The notes beneath the pieces were generated by a model that saw only the letters and a list, made by a program, of their open reading frames with translations, ran no database searches and had not been told where the DNA came from. A program made the translations under genes and the position numbers. Shown here in pieces: positions 1,711-11,095 of a DNA stretch of 40,171 nucleotides. Numbering within the stretch: position 1 is the first letter of the stretch; each line of letters begins with the position of its first letter. The stretch spans positions 1-40,171 of the forward strand of contig NZ_PRLH01000011.1 of the NCBI RefSeq assembly GCF_003013815.1. Reading direction: 5' to 3'. Origin of the DNA: Cyanothece sp. BG0011. GTDB taxonomy: Bacteria; Cyanobacteriota; Cyanobacteriia; Cyanobacteriales; Microcystaceae.

Positions 1711-3350
1711 ATGGCCAGTAAAGGCGCAGCATTAAGTAACTTTTGAGTATAAGGATGTTTGGGTTCTCTGAAAATACTTTCAGTTTCTCCAATTTCTACA
1801 ATTTTACCTTGATTCATCACCGCAATACGATGACAGAAAAAACGGGCAACCCAAAGATCATGAGTAATAAATAAATAGGTTAAATCAAAATCATTTTTTA
1901 ACTCAGACATCAAGTCTAACACTCTCGCTTGAACACTAGCATCCAACATACTAACCGGTTCATCACAAATCACTAATTTCGGTTTAGTAATTAATGCCCT
2001 CGCAATGGCCACTCGTTGCTGTTGTCCCCCCGATAATTCTTTAGGATAACGATGATAATAGTCTTCAACAGGGGTTAATTTAACCCGTTCTAACATTTTA
2101 TATACTTGTTTTTTAGCTTCATTTACAGTAGCTAATTGATGGATTAATAGGGGATCAGCAATACTTTGTCCTACTGTCATTAAAGGATTTAAACAAGCGT
2201 TAGGATCTTGAAAAATCATTTGAATTTGACGACGTTTAAGACGCATTTCTCTTTCAGACAGTTGGGTTAACTCTTCCCCTAAAAAGTGAATGCTTCCCGA
2301 TGTGGCTTTTAATAACTGTAAAAGGGTGCGAGATAGGGTACTTTTTCCACAACCTGACTCACCCACTAACCCTAAAATTTCCCCCGAATACAATTCAAAA
2401 CTAACATCATCTACCGCCTTAATAACGTCTGGTTCTTTAGAGAAAAATTGCTGAATGAAATTCCCTTCTAAAGTAAAATATTGTTTTAAATGATTAACGG
2501 TTAATAACGGTTTCTTGTCTGGTTTATCCTCTTCCCAAGAATCGCTATTCATGGATTCATCCTCTTCTACTTGAACGTGCAAAGCTGCTTTTAATAATGA
2601 CTTGGTATAATCGTGTTGAGGATGATGGAGAATATCAGCCATTTTACCCATTTCTACAATTTTACCGGCATTCATGACAGCCAGGCGATCGCAATATTCC
2701 CCGACCATCGCTAAATCATGGGAAATTAATAATAACCCCATTTCTTCTTCTTCACACAAACGGGTTAATTCTTGTAAAATTTCGGCTGCTACGGTTACAT
2801 CTAAAGCGGTGGTGGGTTCGTCAGCAATAATCATTTTAGGGTTCAATAATAACGCTAACGCCATAGCTACCCGTTGTCGCATTCCACCACTAAACTCATG
2901 GGGATATTGTCCCCAACGGTTGGGAGGAATATTGACTTTCTCTAAAGTTTTAATAGCGATGGTTTTGGCTTCTTTGCGAGATAATTGGGGACGATGGGCC
3001 TGTAAGGTTTCTATGCAATGTTCGCCAATGGTCATCAAGGGGTCCAGACGAGTCATAGGGTCTTGAAACACTAACCCCACTACCTCACCCCGAAACTTTC
3101 TTAACCCTTCGGCGTTTAACCCAAAAATAGATTCACCCTGAAACTCGATTTTTCCCTCAATTTGTGTTAATTTAGGGAGCAAACCCATGGCTGCCTTTCC
3201 CATCGTAGATTTACCACAGCCAGACTCTCCGACTAAGCCCAATTTCTCCCCTTTTTGTAGCGTAAAAGAAACCCTATCAACGGCCCACGTCTCACTGAAT
3301 GGGTACTGAATACGCAACTCATCAACACAAAATAAGGGTTGTCCGTTCAT
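1707..3350 (-). CDS. Fused oligopeptide/dipeptide ABC transporter ATPase (DppD-DppF-like)
   Basis: A 547-residue protein carrying two ABC ATPase domains in tandem, the layout of YejF/GsiA-type fusions. It should power uptake of peptides or similar substrates together with two permeases and a binding protein that are not in this window. Each half has a Walker A (GESGCGKST), an ABC signature (SGGMRQRVAMA in the first, SGGQQQRVAIA in the second), a Walker B (MIIADEP, LVICDEP) and an H-loop histidine (ISHDLAM, ITHDLW). Both halves end with the oligopeptide-family tail (HPQHDYTKSLL, HPYTQKLL), which supports the substrate class. The start ATG at 3350 has no clear Shine-Dalgarno sequence and lies 25 bp downstream of the inferred 3' end of a group II intron. 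Confidence 0.9.
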   Translation of the reverse strand: MNGQPLFCVDELRIQYPFSETWAVDRVSFTLQKGEKLGLVGESGCGKSTMGKAAMGLLPKLTQIEGKIEFQGESIFGLNAEGLRKFRGEVVGLVFQDPMTRLDPLMTIGEHCIETLQAHRPQLSRKEAKTIAIKTLEKVNIPPNRWGQYPHEFSGGMRQRVAMALALLLNPKMIIADEPTTALDVTVAAEILQELTRLCEEEEMGLLLISHDLAMVGEYCDRLAVMNAGKIVEMGKMADILHHPQHDYTKSLLKAALHVQVEEDESMNSDSWEEDKPDKKPLLTVNHLKQYFTLEGNFIQQFFSKEPDVIKAVDDVSFELYSGEILGLVGESGCGKSTLSRTLLQLLKATSGSIHFLGEELTQLSEREMRLKRRQIQMIFQDPNACLNPLMTVGQSIADPLLIHQLATVNEAKKQVYKMLERVKLTPVEDYYHRYPKELSGGQQQRVAIARALITKPKLVICDEPVSMLDASVQARVLDLMSELKNDFDLTYLFITHDLWVARFFCHRIAVMNQGKIVEIGETESIFREPKHPYTQKLLNAAPLLAI

Positions 3351-3375
3351 TGGTTAAGTTTTTTATAAAGTATTT

Positions 3376-3453
3376 ATTAGGGGTCGAGAAGGTAATCGCT
3401 TACCTCCCCTCCCATTCCAAACCGTACGTGAGCCTTTCAACTCATACGGCTTT
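3376..3453 (-). ncRNA. Domains V and VI of the outer group II intron
   Basis: On the minus strand, 3453 to 3419 forms the catalytic domain V hairpin: AAGCCGTATGAG and CTCACGTACGGTTT flank a GAAA-type loop and include the AGC catalytic triad. It is followed by a GGGGAGGTAA/TTACCTTCTCGACCCC stem (domain VI). The A in TCGACCCC is the likely branch point, eight bases from the proposed end. Domain V starts six bases after the RT stop codon. Confidence 0.8.
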
Positions 3454-3459
3454 CGGCAA

Positions 3460-4556
3460 TTAGTCCATTGTCATTGGTACAGTTAATACATCATCTTTCC
3501 ATTTATAGTCATTTTCAGACCAATCATAGGAATTGTCATTTCTGCTTTTGACATCATGACAGTGACGATGTAGAGCTTGATAGTTTTTATATTCATCCTT
3601 ACCGCCTTTCGATTTCGGGATGATGTGGTCAACTTCTATCAAGTCATCAGGAGTGAAGTATTGACCGCATAACGGGCATTTACCTTTCTGTTTCTTTAAG
3701 AGTTTTGCAACTCTGTTGGGTGTTTCTGGGTAGTTACCACGTCTTTTGCTCCAATATGTCCAGTTTCCATCATAAGTTGAGGCTTCAGGTTTGACCACCG
3801 TGTGTCTCTTTATTTCCGTTTCGGCGTGATAATACAGTTGCATTTCTTTAGTGCGAAATGTCCATATTCCATGTTTTCCGTATGAAAAGTATTTATTGAG
3901 TTTGTTGATGGTCTTGCCTTTCTTGACCCTTGATACTGCCCATGCTCGGAGCATATTCCACATTATATGGTCTTCAGATGAGAACGTTTCCTTGCTTGCT
4001 ACAGCTTGGTAGTAGTTACACCATCCTTTGATTACAGGGATTAAATTCCTGATTAATGCTTTTTGAGGGGATTTTTTGTGGTTTTTTATGACCTTTTTAA
4101 TCGCCTCATGGTGAGCTTTTATGGTCTTTTTACTAGGTTTGATTAGGGTCTTGTGTCCAATAGGTTTGGATATGTCTATGCCGTTAATTGTCCCTCCTGT
4201 TTTACCAGAGTGGTATTTACCAACGGGGTAAGACCGAATATTGAACCCTAGAAAGTCAAACCCAGGTTCAATGATTTTTCCATCGATTTCGATACTCCTA
4301 AGAGTATGTCTAATGGAGGTCTTTTCGGGTTTTAGTTCTAGCCCTACTTGTTCTAACCATTGAGATATTAAGGCCTTACATTGTAGAATGACGTTGTAGT
4401 CTTCATGGAGGACTACGAAATCATCAGCGTATCGGATGACCTTGGGTTTGTAGCCTGAATTCATAGAACCGTCTTCTCTCCGCTTATTGCGAGGGAAGTG
4501 GTTTTCTATGTGATTAATCATTCCGTGTAGTGCAATATTAGCTAATAGTGGGCTAA
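3460..4556 (-). CDS. ltrA: Group II intron RT/maturase-HNH protein, C-terminal exon
   Basis: This is the second part of the outer intron's protein, beginning at SPLLANIALHGM, directly after the RT PQGG motif. It contains the YADD active site (residues 278-281 of the restored protein) and the maturase X domain (IRNLIPVIKGWCNYYQ). It ends with an HNH endonuclease domain with paired CxxC and HxxxxCH-like residues (CPLCGQYF, EVDHIIPKSKGG, LHRHCH). The frame stays open back to 4662, but those 34 extra codons are inner-intron RNA (domains V and VI read as protein), so a start there is artificial. Joined to 5522-6227 it gives a continuous 600-residue protein with no missing motif, which argues that it is functional after splicing. 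Confidence 0.85.
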
Positions 4557-4655
4557 ATGGAGTAGGCACAAAGCGCACCTTCCAATCTTTCGGTTGGCGT
4601 GTTTCTTCATACCTCTCCCCAAACCGTACGTGACAATTTCTCGTCATACGGCTTT
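4557..4655 (-). ncRNA. Domains V and VI of the inner group II intron
   Basis: The minus strand from 4655 to 4621 is a domain V hairpin: AAGCCGTATGACGA and GTCACGTACGGTTT flank a GAAA loop with an AGC triad. It is closely similar to the outer intron's domain V but differs in the loop and upper stem. It is followed by a long domain VI hairpin of about 63 nt, in which GGAG pairs with CTCC near the ends and CCAA with TTGG at the tip, ending in AT. Confidence 0.8.
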
Positions 4656-4664
4656 CCATCATTG

Positions 4665-4907
4665 TTACCGTAGTTCCGCTTCTAGCTCATTGACAAACTC
4701 AGCTTTTGCTGTGTCTGATTGAAGAGTTTTCTTTGTTACCCCGTCAATTCCTGCTGTCTTCGACCCCTTGTTTGAGAGTATTGTATCCAGGGCATCTTTA
4801 ATCCAATCTTGACGACAGATGAGCCGATAGAGATGGTCAAATTGATGTTCCTTTTGATACTTAGCTTTTATGGCGAGACTACGTTGGGTTTTGATGATAT
4901 CGGACAT
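4665..4907 (-). pseudogene. Truncated N-terminal fragment of a group II intron RT (inner intron)
   Basis: Eighty residues remain of an intron-encoded protein. They include the N-terminal region (FDHLYRLICRQDWIKDAL) and the RT0 block (NKGSKTAGIDGVTKKTL), then stop nine bases before domain V. All catalytic RT motifs, the X domain and the endonuclease are missing, so it cannot act as a maturase. Its sequence differs clearly from the outer intron's protein, so the inner intron comes from another lineage. The rest of the gene was probably lost by an internal deletion; translation of the fragment is possible but without known use. Confidence 0.75.
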
Positions 4908-5521
4908 ACTTTTTAGTCCTCTCTACTTCCGTTTGTTCGTATCTCTAACAATGACTGCCATCCTTCGCCATGTGCCAGACTATTTTCTGGCTCGGACTAC
5001 TACGATGGCTCTGCCACGCAATAGCTACTTCAGTTGCAGTTAACCCAGTCTGTGACCAGACCAGCTATTACGCTTCCTACGTTCATACTTTGGTACGTAA
5101 TTACATTTAACCGTAGGCTTCTTCTTTACTCCGTTAGGATATAGACCTAATATCCCCGACATCAGTTGATAGTTTGTACCCTTGTAACTAGAGCAATTCA
5201 GACTGAGTAAAAAGTCCTTTTCAGTCAGACGAGTGGATGTTGACTTACCTGATGTCTCACGCCATCTCTGTCGTTTAACAGCGTGTCCAAGGTGTAGGAG
5301 CGTCGGACGAAGATTTCTTTCGTAGCCATAGTTAAATTCAGGCTCGAAGCCTCATACTGTAACAGAGTGCCAGTATTTTGCCCCTTGTTTCCCAGGCTTC
5401 AAACAGGTTCTTACTCATTGTCCCCTGCTTGCTGGGTCAGCCTTAGTACATTAGGGAATGTACTATCTCTTGGTAGTTTTCACTCTCCTTGAGCATTACC
5501 AAAGTACGCTTCGCAGCGCAC

Positions 5522-6227
5522 TTACACCACCTTGAGGAGTTCCAGAATTGGTGTCCTCAAATACGCCGTTATCTATAACGCCACATTTCAACCATCGTTT
5601 AATTAGATGTTTCATGCAGGTAGGACAATCTACTTTGGACAGTAGGTAATCATGGTTAATCTTATCGAAGCATTTTGAGATGTCAGCGTCAAGGACATAT
5701 TTGGCTTTCTTGTTGATTGCTGAGTATATCCTACCGATGGCATCATGTGCGCTTCTGCCTGGTCTAAAACCGTATGATGTCCCTTCAAATTGGGCTTCCC
5801 AATACGGCTCTAAGGCTGATTTAACCAAGGCTTGCATTGCTCTATCTTTAATGGTAGGAATCCCTAGAGGTCGCTTTTCATCACGTCCTGGTTTAGGTAT
5901 CCATATCCGTCTGAGTGCCTTTGCTTTGTAACCTTTGACGTTGAGTTCGTAGGCAAGATTTACTCTCTGGTTAGGGCGTAAAGCCTTTGTCCCATCGATA
6001 CCTGCTGTCTTCCGACCTTGATTATCTTGGGTCACTTTGCGAACGGCTAGGAGCTTAGCATAGTGTGACTTTAACAGGAGTTTTTGAAGCTTTTTGGCTT
6101 TGACTTTGTTTCCTGATTTAACCGCTTGAAATATCTTCTTTTGAAGCTTGAATACTTTTCTTTGGACTTTTGCCCAGTTGATAGTATTCCATTCTTGCGT
6201 AGTCTTGATTATCCTCGCTTTCGACAT
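5522..6227 (-). CDS. ltrA: Group II intron RT/maturase, N-terminal exon
   Basis: The ATG at 6227 opens a frame with the N-terminal region of chloroplast-like group II proteins (EWNTINWAKVQRKVFKLQ), RT0 (NQGRKTAGIDGTKAL), the RIWIPKPG and RPLGIPTIKDR blocks, SYGFRPGRSAHDA, the first catalytic aspartate region (LDADISKCFDKINH, D182) and the PQGG motif at 231-234. The DNA frame runs on to 5496, but the last eight residues (SALRSVLW) are encoded by the first bases of the inner intron. After removal of 4557-5521 the frame continues as ISPLLAN into the 3460-4556 exon, for a 600-residue total. Confidence 0.85.
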
Positions 6228-6875
6228 ATTTACTTCTACTTGTTGCTATTTCGTACTAATAAACCAGTTGTACGTCAGCTTATCCATACTCATTACAAGT
6301 AGGCATTTGCTTCTTACAACTTCTTACCCCCGTGACCCTTGCGCTTAAGTTTGTCACTTCTCAACTACACGACCAGTGGTGAGAGCAATCACGGGGTTAC
6401 TTCGTTCCGTTAATTTGGGATTATTGGTTGTAGGTTTTTTAAGGGTGTCAATTACTCTCTACCCCATCTATCCCCCAGGTTAGTTTTAGGAGTCGGTGTG
6501 AAAAATAATGTGAGCTTTCCACTTTTAACCTTGTTCTTTTGAACGCAGCTTATCAAACAGTTAAGCTACTTACTATTATTGAGGGTTCAAGTCGATGATT
6601 CAACGTAATGTTTAACCTTGACCAATTGACTCAAGGAACGACTTATCGTGCTGTTTCACAACGGGTTCCCCTTTTAACCCTGCTTCCATCCTGGGTTTAC
6701 TAAGTCCAAAACGGAGGGTTATGTCGTCATTCTCAGGATTTGCTCCTTTTGACTCCGAATGTGGCTCCTTTAGCCAACAAATCAACAGTTATCTGAAACT
6801 GAACATATTAATTTGTCAAGGTTCAGACGAGCTAAACACTTGTTAGTACAAGCTTTCTAGCCCAACGAATCGCAC
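6228..6875 (-). ncRNA. Domains I-III of the outer group II intron
   Basis: These 648 bases hold no convincing gene. They start with the intron 5' consensus at 6875 and run to the RT start at 6227, the usual length for domains I to III plus the beginning of domain IV in this intron class. A stem with AGCTTA/TAAGCT arms enclosing a nine-base loop near 6550 may carry one exon-binding site, but I could not confirm the pairing with the exon. A plus-strand frame crossing the 5' end (6902-7096) is not a gene. Confidence 0.6.
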
Positions 6876-7014
6876 CAATAGTTGATAGTTTAACACTGGA
6901 CTTGAACTTAGTTAACTTTGATTACTATAAATATTTTTCAATAAACTGTATTGGAGTTAAATATTCAAAATTTGCGATCGCTTTTATTAATTCTCTATTA
7001 AATAAAATTAAACA

Positions 7015-7251
7015 TTATTTACTTCTTCCTTTTTCTGCTAACATTTCTAATTTTACTTTTTGGATTAATTCTAGTTTTTGTTCTGTAGAGTCATAGCCAT
7101 TTTTTTTAGCCCGTTGACGCATTTCTTCAAATTCATCGGGTTCATTCTTAGCAATAATAACCACATCAACCTCTTCATCGCTGAAGTTTTGATCTAGTTT
7201 GATTTTTAATACCCCGTCACTGATTTTACCTTTGGTTTGTACTATTTTCAT
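7015..7251 (-). CDS. Antitoxin-like small protein
   Basis: A 78-residue protein with a beta-rich N-terminus (MKIVQTKGKISDGVLKIKL) and an acidic-to-basic helical C-terminus (ending EMLAEKGRSK). Small cyanobacterial proteins of this shape are often annotated as type II antitoxins. No toxin gene follows it: 139 bp downstream lies the group II intron and then the ABC gene. An AAAGG-like Shine-Dalgarno sequence precedes the ATG. Antitoxin identity is inferred from size and composition only. If correct it is an orphan, or its toxin has been lost. Confidence 0.5.
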   Translation of the reverse strand: MKIVQTKGKISDGVLKIKLDQNFSDEEVDVVIIAKNEPDEFEEMRQRAKKNGYDSTEQKLELIQKVKLEMLAEKGRSK

Positions 7252-7382
7252 AAGTGTACCTTTAAATAATAAATTACTCTTGACTCCTATAATAAACTAA
7301 AATTTTGTTATTCATCAATAGTAAGACCAGATTCTTCAAGTAGCAATATTTCCTCAAAAAGTTTCTTTGAACTAAGAAAAAG

Positions 7383-8369
7383 TTAATCTAGCGTATATTT
7401 TTTAAAAATCTCTCCTCTTACTACTCTAGCTTTTCTATTATTGGTTCCAGCACACATAAAATTATAATATTGACTAAATTCATTATCTTTATGTTTATTT
7501 TTCAGAATACTTTGTTCTAAATTTTCTAAATTTTTAGTAAAATCCTCAGAAACATTTGCTCCAACTTTAGCTATTTCTACTACCATTGTAAAAAAGCTTG
7601 ATTTGCGATACCAAATCGAATCATTAGGAAGGTCTAAATCTTTAATCAATGCAAAGGTTTTAATGAGTAAAGCTTTCATGTGGTTTTTGTTAGGATACTC
7701 ATCATTAAATTGAACAATATAGTTTTCTATTTCTTTATCTTTAGAAAAATATCCTCCTTCTTCTAAGGTTGACATAATTGATAAAATAAAGTGTAAATCT
7801 GCCATCCGAGTAAATTCTGATTCTCGAAATACTGGAAAATCACTTAAATCAATATTATTTAAAATATCTTTACCTGTTTGAATAAATTCGCCATCATAAA
7901 CAGCATTATGAATTTCTATATCTTCTAGTTTGAATTTAGTTAAATTAATTCTTCTAAATACTTCCTTGATATCACTTTCATCTACTTTACCAATATCTCT
8001 AACAACAATTTGGTATGACAAAAAGTCTCCTCTTTCCTCATCAGTTAACTCCTCAAATTTTTTGATTTTTTTCAAAGGTTTATCATGTTTTCCGTCAATA
8101 TACTTTTTAATCGTTGTCAATCTTTGTTGTCCATCTATTACCCATTCTGTTGTTCGCATTTTTTTAGTGTCAACTTCCCCTTTACAAACATAAATTTCTG
8201 GGAAAGGATAGCCTCTTAAAATAGTATCAATAAATTCTTCCTGATGGTCATGAGTCCAGACAAACTTACGCTGAAAATCGGGTCTAAGAATTAATTTACC
8301 ACTTTCTATATTTTGATAAATATCGGCTATAGTTGGGTTAGTTACTGAGGATTTAATTTGTGTTTGCAT
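7383..8369 (-). CDS. DUF262 domain protein (GmrS/ParB-like fold)
   Basis: A 328-residue protein. The N-terminal DUF262 domain has PDFQRKFVW near residues 30-38 and the diagnostic DGQQRLTT at 79-86, followed by FRRINLTKFKLEDIE, where the helical part begins. DUF262 forms the N-terminal nucleotide-binding/nuclease module of GmrSD-type IV restriction enzymes and occurs in many defence gene sets. Here no C-terminal DUF1524 (HNH) nuclease is present, so it would be an S-type subunit. Its start codon follows the stop of the upstream nucleotidyltransferase gene after one base (TAA G ATG), implying coupled translation and a joint role. Substrate is unknown. After its stop the frame stays open for 24 more codons (to about 7311). 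Confidence 0.8.
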   Translation of the reverse strand: MQTQIKSSVTNPTIADIYQNIESGKLILRPDFQRKFVWTHDHQEEFIDTILRGYPFPEIYVCKGEVDTKKMRTTEWVIDGQQRLTTIKKYIDGKHDKPLKKIKKFEELTDEERGDFLSYQIVVRDIGKVDESDIKEVFRRINLTKFKLEDIEIHNAVYDGEFIQTGKDILNNIDLSDFPVFRESEFTRMADLHFILSIMSTLEEGGYFSKDKEIENYIVQFNDEYPNKNHMKALLIKTFALIKDLDLPNDSIWYRKSSFFTMVVEIAKVGANVSEDFTKNLENLEQSILKNKHKDNEFSQYYNFMCAGTNNRKARVVRGEIFKKYTLD

Positions 8370-8370
8370 C

Positions 8371-8982
8371 TTATCTTATTCTTGTTTGTGAGTTAATAAT
8401 TTGTTTTAATGTACTGATTGTATATCGTTCAAAATAAGAATAACTTTTGAACACTCCAGCAGAAACCTTATAATTTCCTACTTCTGATTTACCATAAGAA
8501 ATAGATTTAAAAAAATCAAACCATGATTGTTTTAATATTCCTACATCAAAAGATAAAGGAAGTTTATCAGGTCGAATCCAACCAATTGCTGTATACTCCA
8601 GAAAAGAATGATATTGGTCTAATTCTCTGACAGTTATGCTTTTTCTCGCTTTTCTCAGTTCCATTTGATAGTCATAAATAGGTTCTAACATCTTTTCGTA
8701 TAATTGAGGTGAAATAATAGCTACATCAATATCTGAATTATAATCAAACTTTTTTTGTTTAAAAGGACTAAATCCTAACTTCGCTGAACCTGTAATATAA
8801 ATTTCGTAAAAGTTAATATTAAAATGCTGAGAAATTCTTTTTCTAAATTCATAATATTCATCTTGATTATCAGTAAATATATAAGGAATTCCATGTATTA
8901 AGTATTTACGGCAAAAATCAATTATTTCCTCTTCATCTTGGAGTTTTTTGACTTGAGCGAAAAATTTTTCTAACGCTTCCAT
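8371..8982 (-). CDS. Minimal nucleotidyltransferase-like protein paired with DUF262
   Basis: A 203-residue protein from the ATG at 8982; a TTG three codons upstream is a less likely start. The nucleotidyltransferase fold signature is visible: ITGSAKLGFS (GS at 65-66), NSDIDVAII with aspartates 84 and 86, and a third aspartate in LPLSFDVGIL (D146). The catalytic triad is therefore intact. Related minimal nucleotidyltransferases (MNT) modify toxins or RNA in toxin-antitoxin and defence systems. It is the first gene of a two-gene unit with the DUF262 protein. It is not a cGAS-like CD-NTase by any motif I can see, and the substrate is not predictable. Confidence 0.75.
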   Translation of the reverse strand: MEALEKFFAQVKKLQDEEEIIDFCRKYLIHGIPYIFTDNQDEYYEFRKRISQHFNINFYEIYITGSAKLGFSPFKQKKFDYNSDIDVAIISPQLYEKMLEPIYDYQMELRKARKSITVRELDQYHSFLEYTAIGWIRPDKLPLSFDVGILKQSWFDFFKSISYGKSEVGNYKVSAGVFKSYSYFERYTISTLKQIINSQTRIR

Positions 8983-9090
8983 TACAGACAATTATATAAT
9001 TTATAGAAGATGATAGGATTAACTTAAGTTAACCCAAGATAATCCCAGACGAATTCTTCTTTTATTCATCACTAATGTATATATTTTTAT

Positions 9091-9648
9091 TTAGTTTCTT
9101 GGTCTTCTATTGCGTTTTGTAAAGTTATGTTGCGAAGACATCAAAGAAACCCCAAGTTTTTCAGAGATCCAAACTTCAAAATTATGGATAGGATAAGAAC
9201 GGACTGCGATCGCAGGATCAACCATCGGTTTAACCAAAATCGTAAACATCCCCAAACGGTTTCCGGCTAAGACATCGGTAAATAAGCGATCGCCGACCAT
9301 TGCTACTTGAGGAATGGGTAATTCCATAGCGCGAATGGCTTTTTTTAGTTTCCGTCGAGAGGGTTTAACAGCCCCTAATAAATAAGGTAACTCCAAAGAA
9401 TTCGCAATACTACCAATACGATTTTCACTAATATTATTACTCACTAACCAAATGGGGGTTTTTCGCCGAATTTGGTTGATCCATAGTCTCAATTCCTCAG
9501 AAACATGGGGTTTTTTCAGAGGGACTAGGGTTTCATCCACATCCAAGATTAATCCCTTAATGTGATAATGATCTAAAACGTCTTGGCTTAAACCAAGAAT
9601 CGTATCTCCTAAAATTAAATCAGGCTGTAACAGTTTGGCCTTAGACAT
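9091..9648 (-). CDS. YqeG family HAD phosphatase
   Basis: A 185-residue HAD subclass IIIA hydrolase. Motif I is LDVDETL (D36, D38), motif II is VSNN (S70), the motif III lysine is in AVKPSRRK (K95), and motif IV is GDRLFTDV (D120, D125). All catalytic positions are present. The YqeG/Gep4 family includes phosphatidylglycerophosphate phosphatases of mitochondria and plant plastids, so a role in phosphatidylglycerol synthesis for thylakoids is a reasonable inference, but the cyanobacterial member's substrate is not shown by the sequence. The gene is divergent from psbA. Confidence 0.88.
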   Translation of the reverse strand: MSKAKLLQPDLILGDTILGLSQDVLDHYHIKGLILDVDETLVPLKKPHVSEELRLWINQIRRKTPIWLVSNNISENRIGSIANSLELPYLLGAVKPSRRKLKKAIRAMELPIPQVAMVGDRLFTDVLAGNRLGMFTILVKPMVDPAIAVRSYPIHNFEVWISEKLGVSLMSSQHNFTKRNRRPRN

Positions 9649-10033: not shown

Positions 10034-11095
10034 ATGACAACCACCATACAAAGTCAAAATCTTTCTTTGTGGGAGCGGTTTTGTCAGTGGATAACTAGCA
10101 CTAATAACCGTCTATATATCGGTTGGTTTGGTGTTATTCTTATCCCTACATTACTAACCGCCACCATTTGTTTTATCATTGCTTTCATTGCCGCTCCTCC
10201 TGTGGATATTGACGGGATTCGTGAGCCGGTCGCAGGATCATTGCTCTATGGAAATAATATTATTTCTGGAGCAGTGGTTCCCTCTTCTAATGCGATCGGA
10301 TTACACTTTTATCCCATCTGGGAAGCAGCATCTCTCGATGAATGGCTGTATAACGGCGGTCCTTATCAATTAGTCATTTTCCATTTTCTCATTGGTATTT
10401 TCTGCTGGATGGGAAGACAATGGGAACTGTCTTATCGGTTAGGGATGCGTCCTTGGATTTGTGTTGCTTATAGCGCACCTGTCTCTGCAGCCACTGCTGT
10501 CTTCTTAATCTATCCCATTGGTCAGGGTTCTTTCTCCGATGGTATGCCGTTAGGAATCAGTGGAACCTTTAACTTTATGTTCGTTTTCCAAGCTGAACAT
10601 AATATCTTAATGCACCCCTTCCATATGTTGGGGGTTGCGGGTGTATTCGGCGGTGCTTTATTCTCTGCGATGCACGGAAGTTTAGTTACCTCTAGCTTAG
10701 TGCGTGAGACAACCGAAACCGAATCCCAAAACTACGGTTATAAGTTTGGACAAGAAGAAGAAACCTATAACATTGTGGCCGCTCATGGTTACTTTGGTCG
10801 TTTAATCTTCCAATATGCGTCCTTCAACAATAGCCGTGCGTTACACTTTTTCTTAGGTGCTTGGCCAGTGATTGGTATTTGGTTCACTGCGATGGGTGTT
10901 AGTACCATGGCCTTTAATCTGAATGGATTTAACTTTAACCAATCTGTGTTAGATTCTCAAGGTCGTGTAATTGGTACTTGGGCCGATGTTCTTAACCGTG
11001 CTGGGATTGGCATGGAAGTGATGCACGAGCGCAATGCTCACAACTTCCCCTTAGACTTAGCCAGTGGCGAACAAACCTTAATTGCTCTTAAATAA
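10034..11095 (+). CDS. psbA: Photosystem II D1 protein, divergent paralogue
   Basis: A 353-residue D1 reaction-centre protein of the thylakoid membrane. Numbering is one less than the standard because of an N-terminal gap. In standard numbering it keeps the manganese-cluster ligands D170, E189, H332, E333, H337, D342 and A344, the redox tyrosine Y161, H190, the chlorophyll ligand H198, the iron ligands H215 and H272, and S264 at the QB site. It is therefore neither a rogue nor a chlorophyll-f type D1. It carries Q130 (low-light type), G80, F158 and T286, so it is not the low-oxygen D1' form. Unusual points are Trp instead of Tyr at 126, next to the pheophytin, and a short C-terminal extension of 10 residues after A344 ([10 protein letters not shown]). 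A strong terminator follows. Confidence 0.97.

Follow-up and report, generated by a model that had tools for sequence, protein, structure and literature searches.

Background

Among the described cases of nested group II introns, or twintrons, one close to the subject of this paper comes from Thermosynechococcus elongatus, where the inner introns of the TeI4/TeI3 twintrons lack a reverse transcriptase (RT) gene, are derived by deletion, and proliferate by homing (PMC2882425). The twintron of Trichodesmium erythraeum combines two distantly related introns whose sequential splicing has been shown in vivo; according to the same source it is conserved across that genus and was found nowhere else (PMC4649490). 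For Methanosarcina, homing into the open reading frames (ORFs) of introns is documented in these sources by citation only. The present study concerns a stretch of 40,171 nucleotides from Cyanothece sp. BG0011 (contig NZ_PRLH01000011.1), called the window in what follows, in which one group II intron lies in the RT gene of another.

We think it likely that this locus is a group II twintron and that its inner intron, which lacks an RT, belongs to a lineage homing into the codons Pro-Gln-Gly-Gly-x, the RT5 motif, in the RT genes of other introns. The name RT5, as well as exon-binding site (EBS) and intron-binding site (IBS), are used in their general sense. That a lineage repeatedly inserts at this codon position is the point that the first-pass annotation of the window, made from the sequence alone, did not see.

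Two nested introns and a restored frame

Both introns are on the minus strand (Table 1). The first-pass annotation had proposed a twintron with its two elements at 3376-6875 and 4557-5521, and its coordinates are borne out at each boundary: the outer intron starts with GTGCGAT at 6875 and the inner one with GTGCGCT at 5521, and each ends in a match to RF00029, the Rfam family of domains V and VI, at 3454-3376 with 57.9 bits and at 4656-4557 with 65.6 bits. Both scores exceed the gathering score of 40, so the suggested search for group II domains succeeds at both 3' ends. Each domain V/VI also folds better than 200 out of 200 shuffled sequences, with z = -4.4 for the outer intron and z = -6.4 for the inner one. 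Each element thus has the 3' domain V/VI and the 5' GUGYG expected of a group II intron, and the inner one has a bulged branch-point A as well.

The insertion of the outer intron was precise: its exact empty site, CAACTATTG/AAATACTT, is found in a genome of the same genus (G393, locus L185), where the sequence is undisturbed at the junction and agrees with the joined outer flanks of the window. Since that site is empty, the outer intron either arrived after the split from G393 or was precisely lost there.

Left in place, the inner intron interrupts the outer RT frame, which reads PQGGV, then eight foreign residues (SALRSVLW), then a stop. Once 5521-4557 is removed, the frame reads PQGGVISPLLAN / GTPQGGVISPLLAN across the join and remains open for 606 codons, 600 of them counted from the ATG, in agreement with the frame of 600 residues that had been predicted from the in-frame join. 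The two halves abut at positions 125/126 of Pfam RVT_1 and at positions 185/187 of TIGR04416. The order of domains in the joined protein is RVT_N, RVT_1, then GIIM and HNH: the set of RT, maturase X and endonuclease domains in this intron-encoded protein (IEP) is complete only when the flanks are joined. The locus is thus an intron within an intron, the outer element being restored by removal of the inner one.

The annotation had also proposed to look for relatives with an uninterrupted RT. They exist, and two of them, on contigs C157 (L015) and C57 (L038), are paralogues in the same genome that read straight through the point at which the inner intron sits. The uninterrupted sequence PQGG-(V/T)-(I/M)-SPLLAN was found at 17 sites in 16 of the 19 loci scanned; in the remaining three there is no PQGG (L104, L022), or the sole match does not continue as RT (L014). 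The intact relatives, which the annotation had named as a possible refutation, thus speak for the twintron.

Pairwise comparison of the outer RT with the four uninterrupted relatives that have an extracted ORF, five loci of genome G394 being left out, gives ratios of replacement to silent substitution rates (dN/dS) of 0.115-0.175, with 0.115 against C157. Summed over both parts of the gene, the branch of the window carries 14 replacement and 48 silent changes, and those of the paralogues 18/47 and 20/49. By these counts the outer RT gene, which changes mainly silently, shows no sign of decay; a gene that the inner intron had entered recently would look identical.

Table 1. Features of the twintron, with positions in the window.
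Feature	Position	Strand	Evidence
Outer group II intron, inner one included	3376..6875	-	RF00029 at 3' end, GTGCG start, exact empty site in G393
Domain V/VI of outer intron	3376..3454	-	RF00029 match; folding against shuffles
5' part of outer RT gene, up to PQGG-V and one base of the codon that follows	5522..6227	-	ORF list, joined frame, RVT_N and RVT_1 1-125
3' part of outer RT gene, with the remainder of RT including YADD, the maturase domain and HNH	3460..4556	-	Joined frame, RVT_1 126-205, GIIM, HNH
Target in the RT5 motif, immediately upstream of inner intron: codons for Pro-Gln-Gly-Gly-Val and one further base	5522..5537	-	Same phase in relatives
Inner group II intron, 965 nucleotides, GTGCGC...CCTACTCCAT, without full RT gene	4557..5521	-	RF00029; boundaries common to ORF-bearing relatives
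Domain V/VI of inner intron, bulged A 7 nucleotides from 3' end	4557..4656	-	RF00029; folding
RT remnant of inner intron, 80 residues, N-terminal end only	4665..4907	-	ORF list; comparison with L120
Proposed EBS2 of inner intron, ACCTTG, complementary to target CAAGGT (5529-5534)	5288..5293	-	Best domain I window against exon -13..-8
Tentative EBS1 of inner intron, TTACTC, 5/6 pairs with exon -6..-1	5205..5210	-	Top covarying window, weak statistics

The inner intron

The inner intron has an ORF-bearing relative at locus L120, in a metagenome-assembled genome (MAG) of Xenococcaceae, MO_188.B19. Positions 1-853 of the window's copy match this relative at 91.7% identity and positions 853-965 at 96.5%, and 1,418 bases of the L120 intron are absent between the two matching segments. 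A single internal deletion removed most of the RT gene. The remnant is 83% identical to residues 1-87 of the L120 inner IEP, and since only these 80 residues are left, the inner element is an ORF-less group II intron, with no RT or maturase of its own. The description of the locus as an intact case therefore holds for the boundaries and for the outer frame, and fails for the inner intron, which is incomplete as a retroelement.

The inner intron occurs once in its genome, where there are elsewhere only three matches of 38 nucleotides to its domain V; a search of eight other genomes of the genus gave only matches of that size, in two of the eight. The gene that we take to be carB is 74-76% identical between the genomes of the window and of L120, and the inner introns 92-96%: the difference points to horizontal spread of the intron.

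These data also allow a less favourable reading, in which the inner intron, once inserted at the RT5 site, lost its RT and then its splicing, leaving the outer RT as a recent pseudogene. With the L120 protein as query, no cognate RT for the inner intron was found in the assembly: the remnant aside, identity is 36% for the match with the highest score and 30-47% for the others. The absence of the outer intron from the same-genus site adds that the whole arrangement may be recent, and if the inner intron is a recent arrival, the selection result says little on splicing. Yet the domain V/VI of the inner intron is intact, with its bulged A, the boundaries are sharp, the 600-codon frame is open, and the proportion of replacement changes is not relaxed. 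RT-less group II introns that splice are, moreover, documented in Trichodesmium (PMC4649490) and in T. elongatus (PMC2882425). We judge such a dead end improbable, though it is the alternative to be taken most seriously.

Relatives at the same codons

When 388 genomes of the class were searched at the DNA level, 12 had matches to the inner intron. Seven of these have only pieces of less than 50 bases; the other five are the window's own genome and G034, G127, G197 and G270, and in these last four the intron ends that are present adjoin an RT gene, in the same codon phase.

The search was widened to 84,980 species genomes, a number taken from the description of the search resource, with a 23-base pattern drawn from the inner intron's own 3' end and containing no exon base. 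It gave 42 matches in 41 stretches, belonging to 20 genomes by title; members whose 3' end departs from the pattern fall outside these counts. Leaving out L128, which has a flank of 3 nucleotides, 41 places have a flank of at least 60. The reading continues in frame as SP[LTVI]L[AS]N in 31 of the 41, and a YADD-like motif follows further on in 29 of those 31. On the other side, the 20 genomes were searched for 5' ends by means of a single query of 560 bases, which returned 18 rows from 13 genomes: 15 rows have PQGG-x in phase before GTGYG. When the window and L085 are added, there are 19 distinct recognised 5' junctions, 17 of which are exactly PQGG-x in phase.

A tree of 44 rows relates invaders and hosts. 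It holds 12 rows from 11 inner introns (L110 and L154 being one locus), 31 hosts including that of the window, and one uninterrupted paralogue; the hosts of L113 and L126 are too short for it. The inner proteins form one clade with 100/100 support and short internal branches, and the 31 host proteins are scattered over the tree on long branches. According to a warning from the tree program, long branches come together at the base and may be joined falsely there; this affects the point of attachment of the inner clade and leaves its tightness untouched. The inner introns of L115 and L120 are closely similar and their hosts distant. At L126 the host is itself of the inner family: over 46 residues it shares 36-41 with inner-family RTs, where the figure for four other hosts is 10-13. 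Here an intron of the lineage has entered one of its own. Together, the tree and the 31 places among 41 establish repeated insertion at one site in the RT genes of other introns.

Common descent of a single ancient twintron would also place its inner intron in the same codon phase at 17 of 19 5' junctions and 31 of 41 3' junctions. It is, however, very improbable that this explains the data: vertical inheritance is disfavoured by the tree, with its single short-branched inner clade and its scattered hosts, by the pair L115 and L120, by the L126 host, itself an inner-family RT, and by the plentiful empty sites in hosts of the window's genus.

For comparison, a search for another intron family of the same genome covered 291 genomes of the order. 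Outside the genome itself, 14 loci show an intron start where it is expected, with 60 nucleotides of upstream sequence; none of the 14 is at a PQGG-like site, and none lies inside a domain V hairpin, one of them (L210) being directly behind such a hairpin. The sites of this family are dispersed, so a single constant address is unusual for such introns. Group II introns do often sit in other mobile elements (PMC8919778), but with one codon phase shared by 31 of 41 relatives, and a comparison family that is dispersed, there is next to no chance that an intron simply landed in its neighbour's RT gene without special targeting.

Proposed target recognition

A scan of domain I of the inner intron found ACCTTG, identical in 12 of 12 aligned introns and complementary to CAAGGN, the Gln-Gly codons. 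Its position fits EBS2, since it lies upstream of the EBS1 candidate. The proposed pairing with the target is convincing for EBS2 and weak for EBS1. The EBS1 candidate makes 6/6 pairs in L119 and 6/6 with a wobble in L120. In the outer intron, exact-word complements of the last exon bases were sought in domain I as EBS1, and none was found except AATAGT, once.

Other loci of the family and other nestings

In the Mastigocoleus MAG, the loci L123, L125, L132, L134, L138 and L145 are inner-family 3' ends without an intact RT motif after them; L132 begins SPLL, then meets a stop. They may be either dispersed copies or decayed hosts. Locus L114 is an RT5 twintron in a Bacteroidota record, Flavobacterium sp. 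SUN052 contig13. As its flanks have about 50% G+C and the assembly is of 8.1 Mb, it may be contaminant cyanobacterial DNA, or a transfer.

Viral contigs gave no match to the inner 3' end. Plasmids gave two records more than 60% identical to the L120 inner protein, both from Leptolyngbya boryana. Plasmid 1 of L. boryana NIES-2135 (AP018204.1, L226) carries three nested group II introns at 2588-9288. A middle intron (3074-7965) interrupts the outermost RT behind YGFRPG, and the middle intron's own RT is in turn interrupted at PQGG by an inner intron with an ORF (4393-6780). Domain V/VI is matched three times, and the annotation consists of five pieces named reverse transcriptase. Joining gives an open frame of 617 codons for the middle RT but of only 338 for the outermost, which therefore looks damaged.

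Another family of the window's genome shows a different nesting. At 4703-9099 of L020 (contig C143), two copies of about 2.2 kb stand head to tail without spacer inside domain V of an outer-type intron, whose hairpin folds perfectly when both are removed; pieces of this arrangement are also seen in L038, L019 and L021. Among 14 relatives with a clear 5' end in other genomes, none was inside domain V. At about position 1499 of the reverse strand of L210, an intron start stands directly behind the domain V hairpin of another group II intron, possibly a further nesting site. An outer-type intron with an internally deleted RT gene lies at 5122-6369 of L017 (contig C128), where the 5' region has no match to the window's outer intron.

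In the window itself, the outer intron ends 25 nucleotides upstream of the ATG (3350) of a gene presumed to encode an ABC-transporter ATPase. A gene at 10034 that we recognise as psbA marks the organism as a cyanobacterium, and for that reason as a member of the group in which nested introns are known.

Discussion

Homing of an RT-less intron into RT5 codons has several observations to contend with. Three of the 41 places begin with SP and are damaged or unclear (L132, L140, L142), and seven fall outside the RT motif (L118, L123, L125, L134, L138, L143, L145), five of the seven being from the one Mastigocoleus MAG. Among the 5' junctions, that of L153 is damaged but in phase (PQGR), that of L149 is damaged and out of phase (PQGD), and row L152 has no recognisable 5' end. 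The pairing of EBS1 is imperfect, with 5/6 pairs in the window and at most three in some relatives, and it remains tentative because its covariation is borderline: right-anchored words of lengths 5, 6 and 7 give p values of 0.24, 0.058 and 0.030, further weakened by the choice of right-anchoring after a first result had been seen. An earlier scan with left-anchored words had given p = 0.14 and 0.17, values that are not significant, partly owing to alignment gaps.

If homing into RT5 codons is nevertheless what takes place, it would rely on base-pairing of the inner intron's RNA with DNA. From the sequences we infer that the inner intron splices, in what order, and that retrohoming was its route of insertion. 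The inner intron would most likely leave the transcript first, rejoining V-I-S and so restoring the outer RT frame; the rebuilt outer protein would then be made, and would help the outer intron to splice and to move. Having no RT, the inner intron would either borrow a foreign maturase for its splicing or do without one.

The relatives at the same spot suggest a small mobile element specialised in invading other mobile elements. We lean, with less assurance, towards a broader proposal: that the lineage, almost only in cyanobacteria, is a hyperparasite recognising the codons Pro-Gln-Gly-Gly, for which nearly any group II RT gene would be a target, that it puts the mobility of its victims under its own splicing, and that its RT-less members persist on a borrowed maturase or on none.

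An element aimed at the codons of a conserved motif finds targets in every place where group II introns occur, and this, if the proposal is true, would explain its spread between distant cyanobacteria. It would be a natural case of a selfish element controlling another, the outer RT being whole only once the inner intron has left the RNA. Splicing and homing are directly testable with plasmid 1 of Leptolyngbya boryana NIES-2135, a complete sequence from a named strain that bears an ORF-containing copy.

Comparison with known systems

Among the titles and abstract beginnings listed by searches of one open-licence library, none describes an RT5-specific intron lineage with many hosts. By published accounts, survey pipelines fail to detect the outer member of a nested pair or leave nested introns out (PMC8919778, PMC4028801), and such a lineage could thus have been overlooked.

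The nested introns of Methanosarcina acetivorans (Dai and Zimmerly 2003) resemble the present ones in their nesting, in a host that is an archaeon. The Trichodesmium erythraeum twintron is, like ours, cyanobacterial and made of group II introns, but its inner intron lies in domain I RNA and not in the RT gene (PMC4649490). In the mat1f twintrons of the Porphyridium plastid, two distinct outer introns carry one and the same inner intron, located in the IEP region, as in the lineage reported here; there, however, the setting is a plastid, the outer IEPs are remnants, and the two hosts are closely related (PMC4476101).

The T. elongatus TeI4/TeI3 twintrons share several features with that of the window: they are cyanobacterial, and their RT-less inner introns occupy a single conserved position within the RT gene of other group II introns. 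That site lies between two start codons, so that the RT could be made from unspliced RNA, whereas here the RT core is split; and the ORF-less introns of T. elongatus go back to an intron with an ORF in that same genome (PMC2882425). Contrary to these, the family of the window's inner intron has ORF-bearing members and diverse hosts. Homing into intron ORFs is already known from Methanosarcina and Thermosynechococcus, and the value of the present finding is the wider pattern, in which RT5 is the common address.

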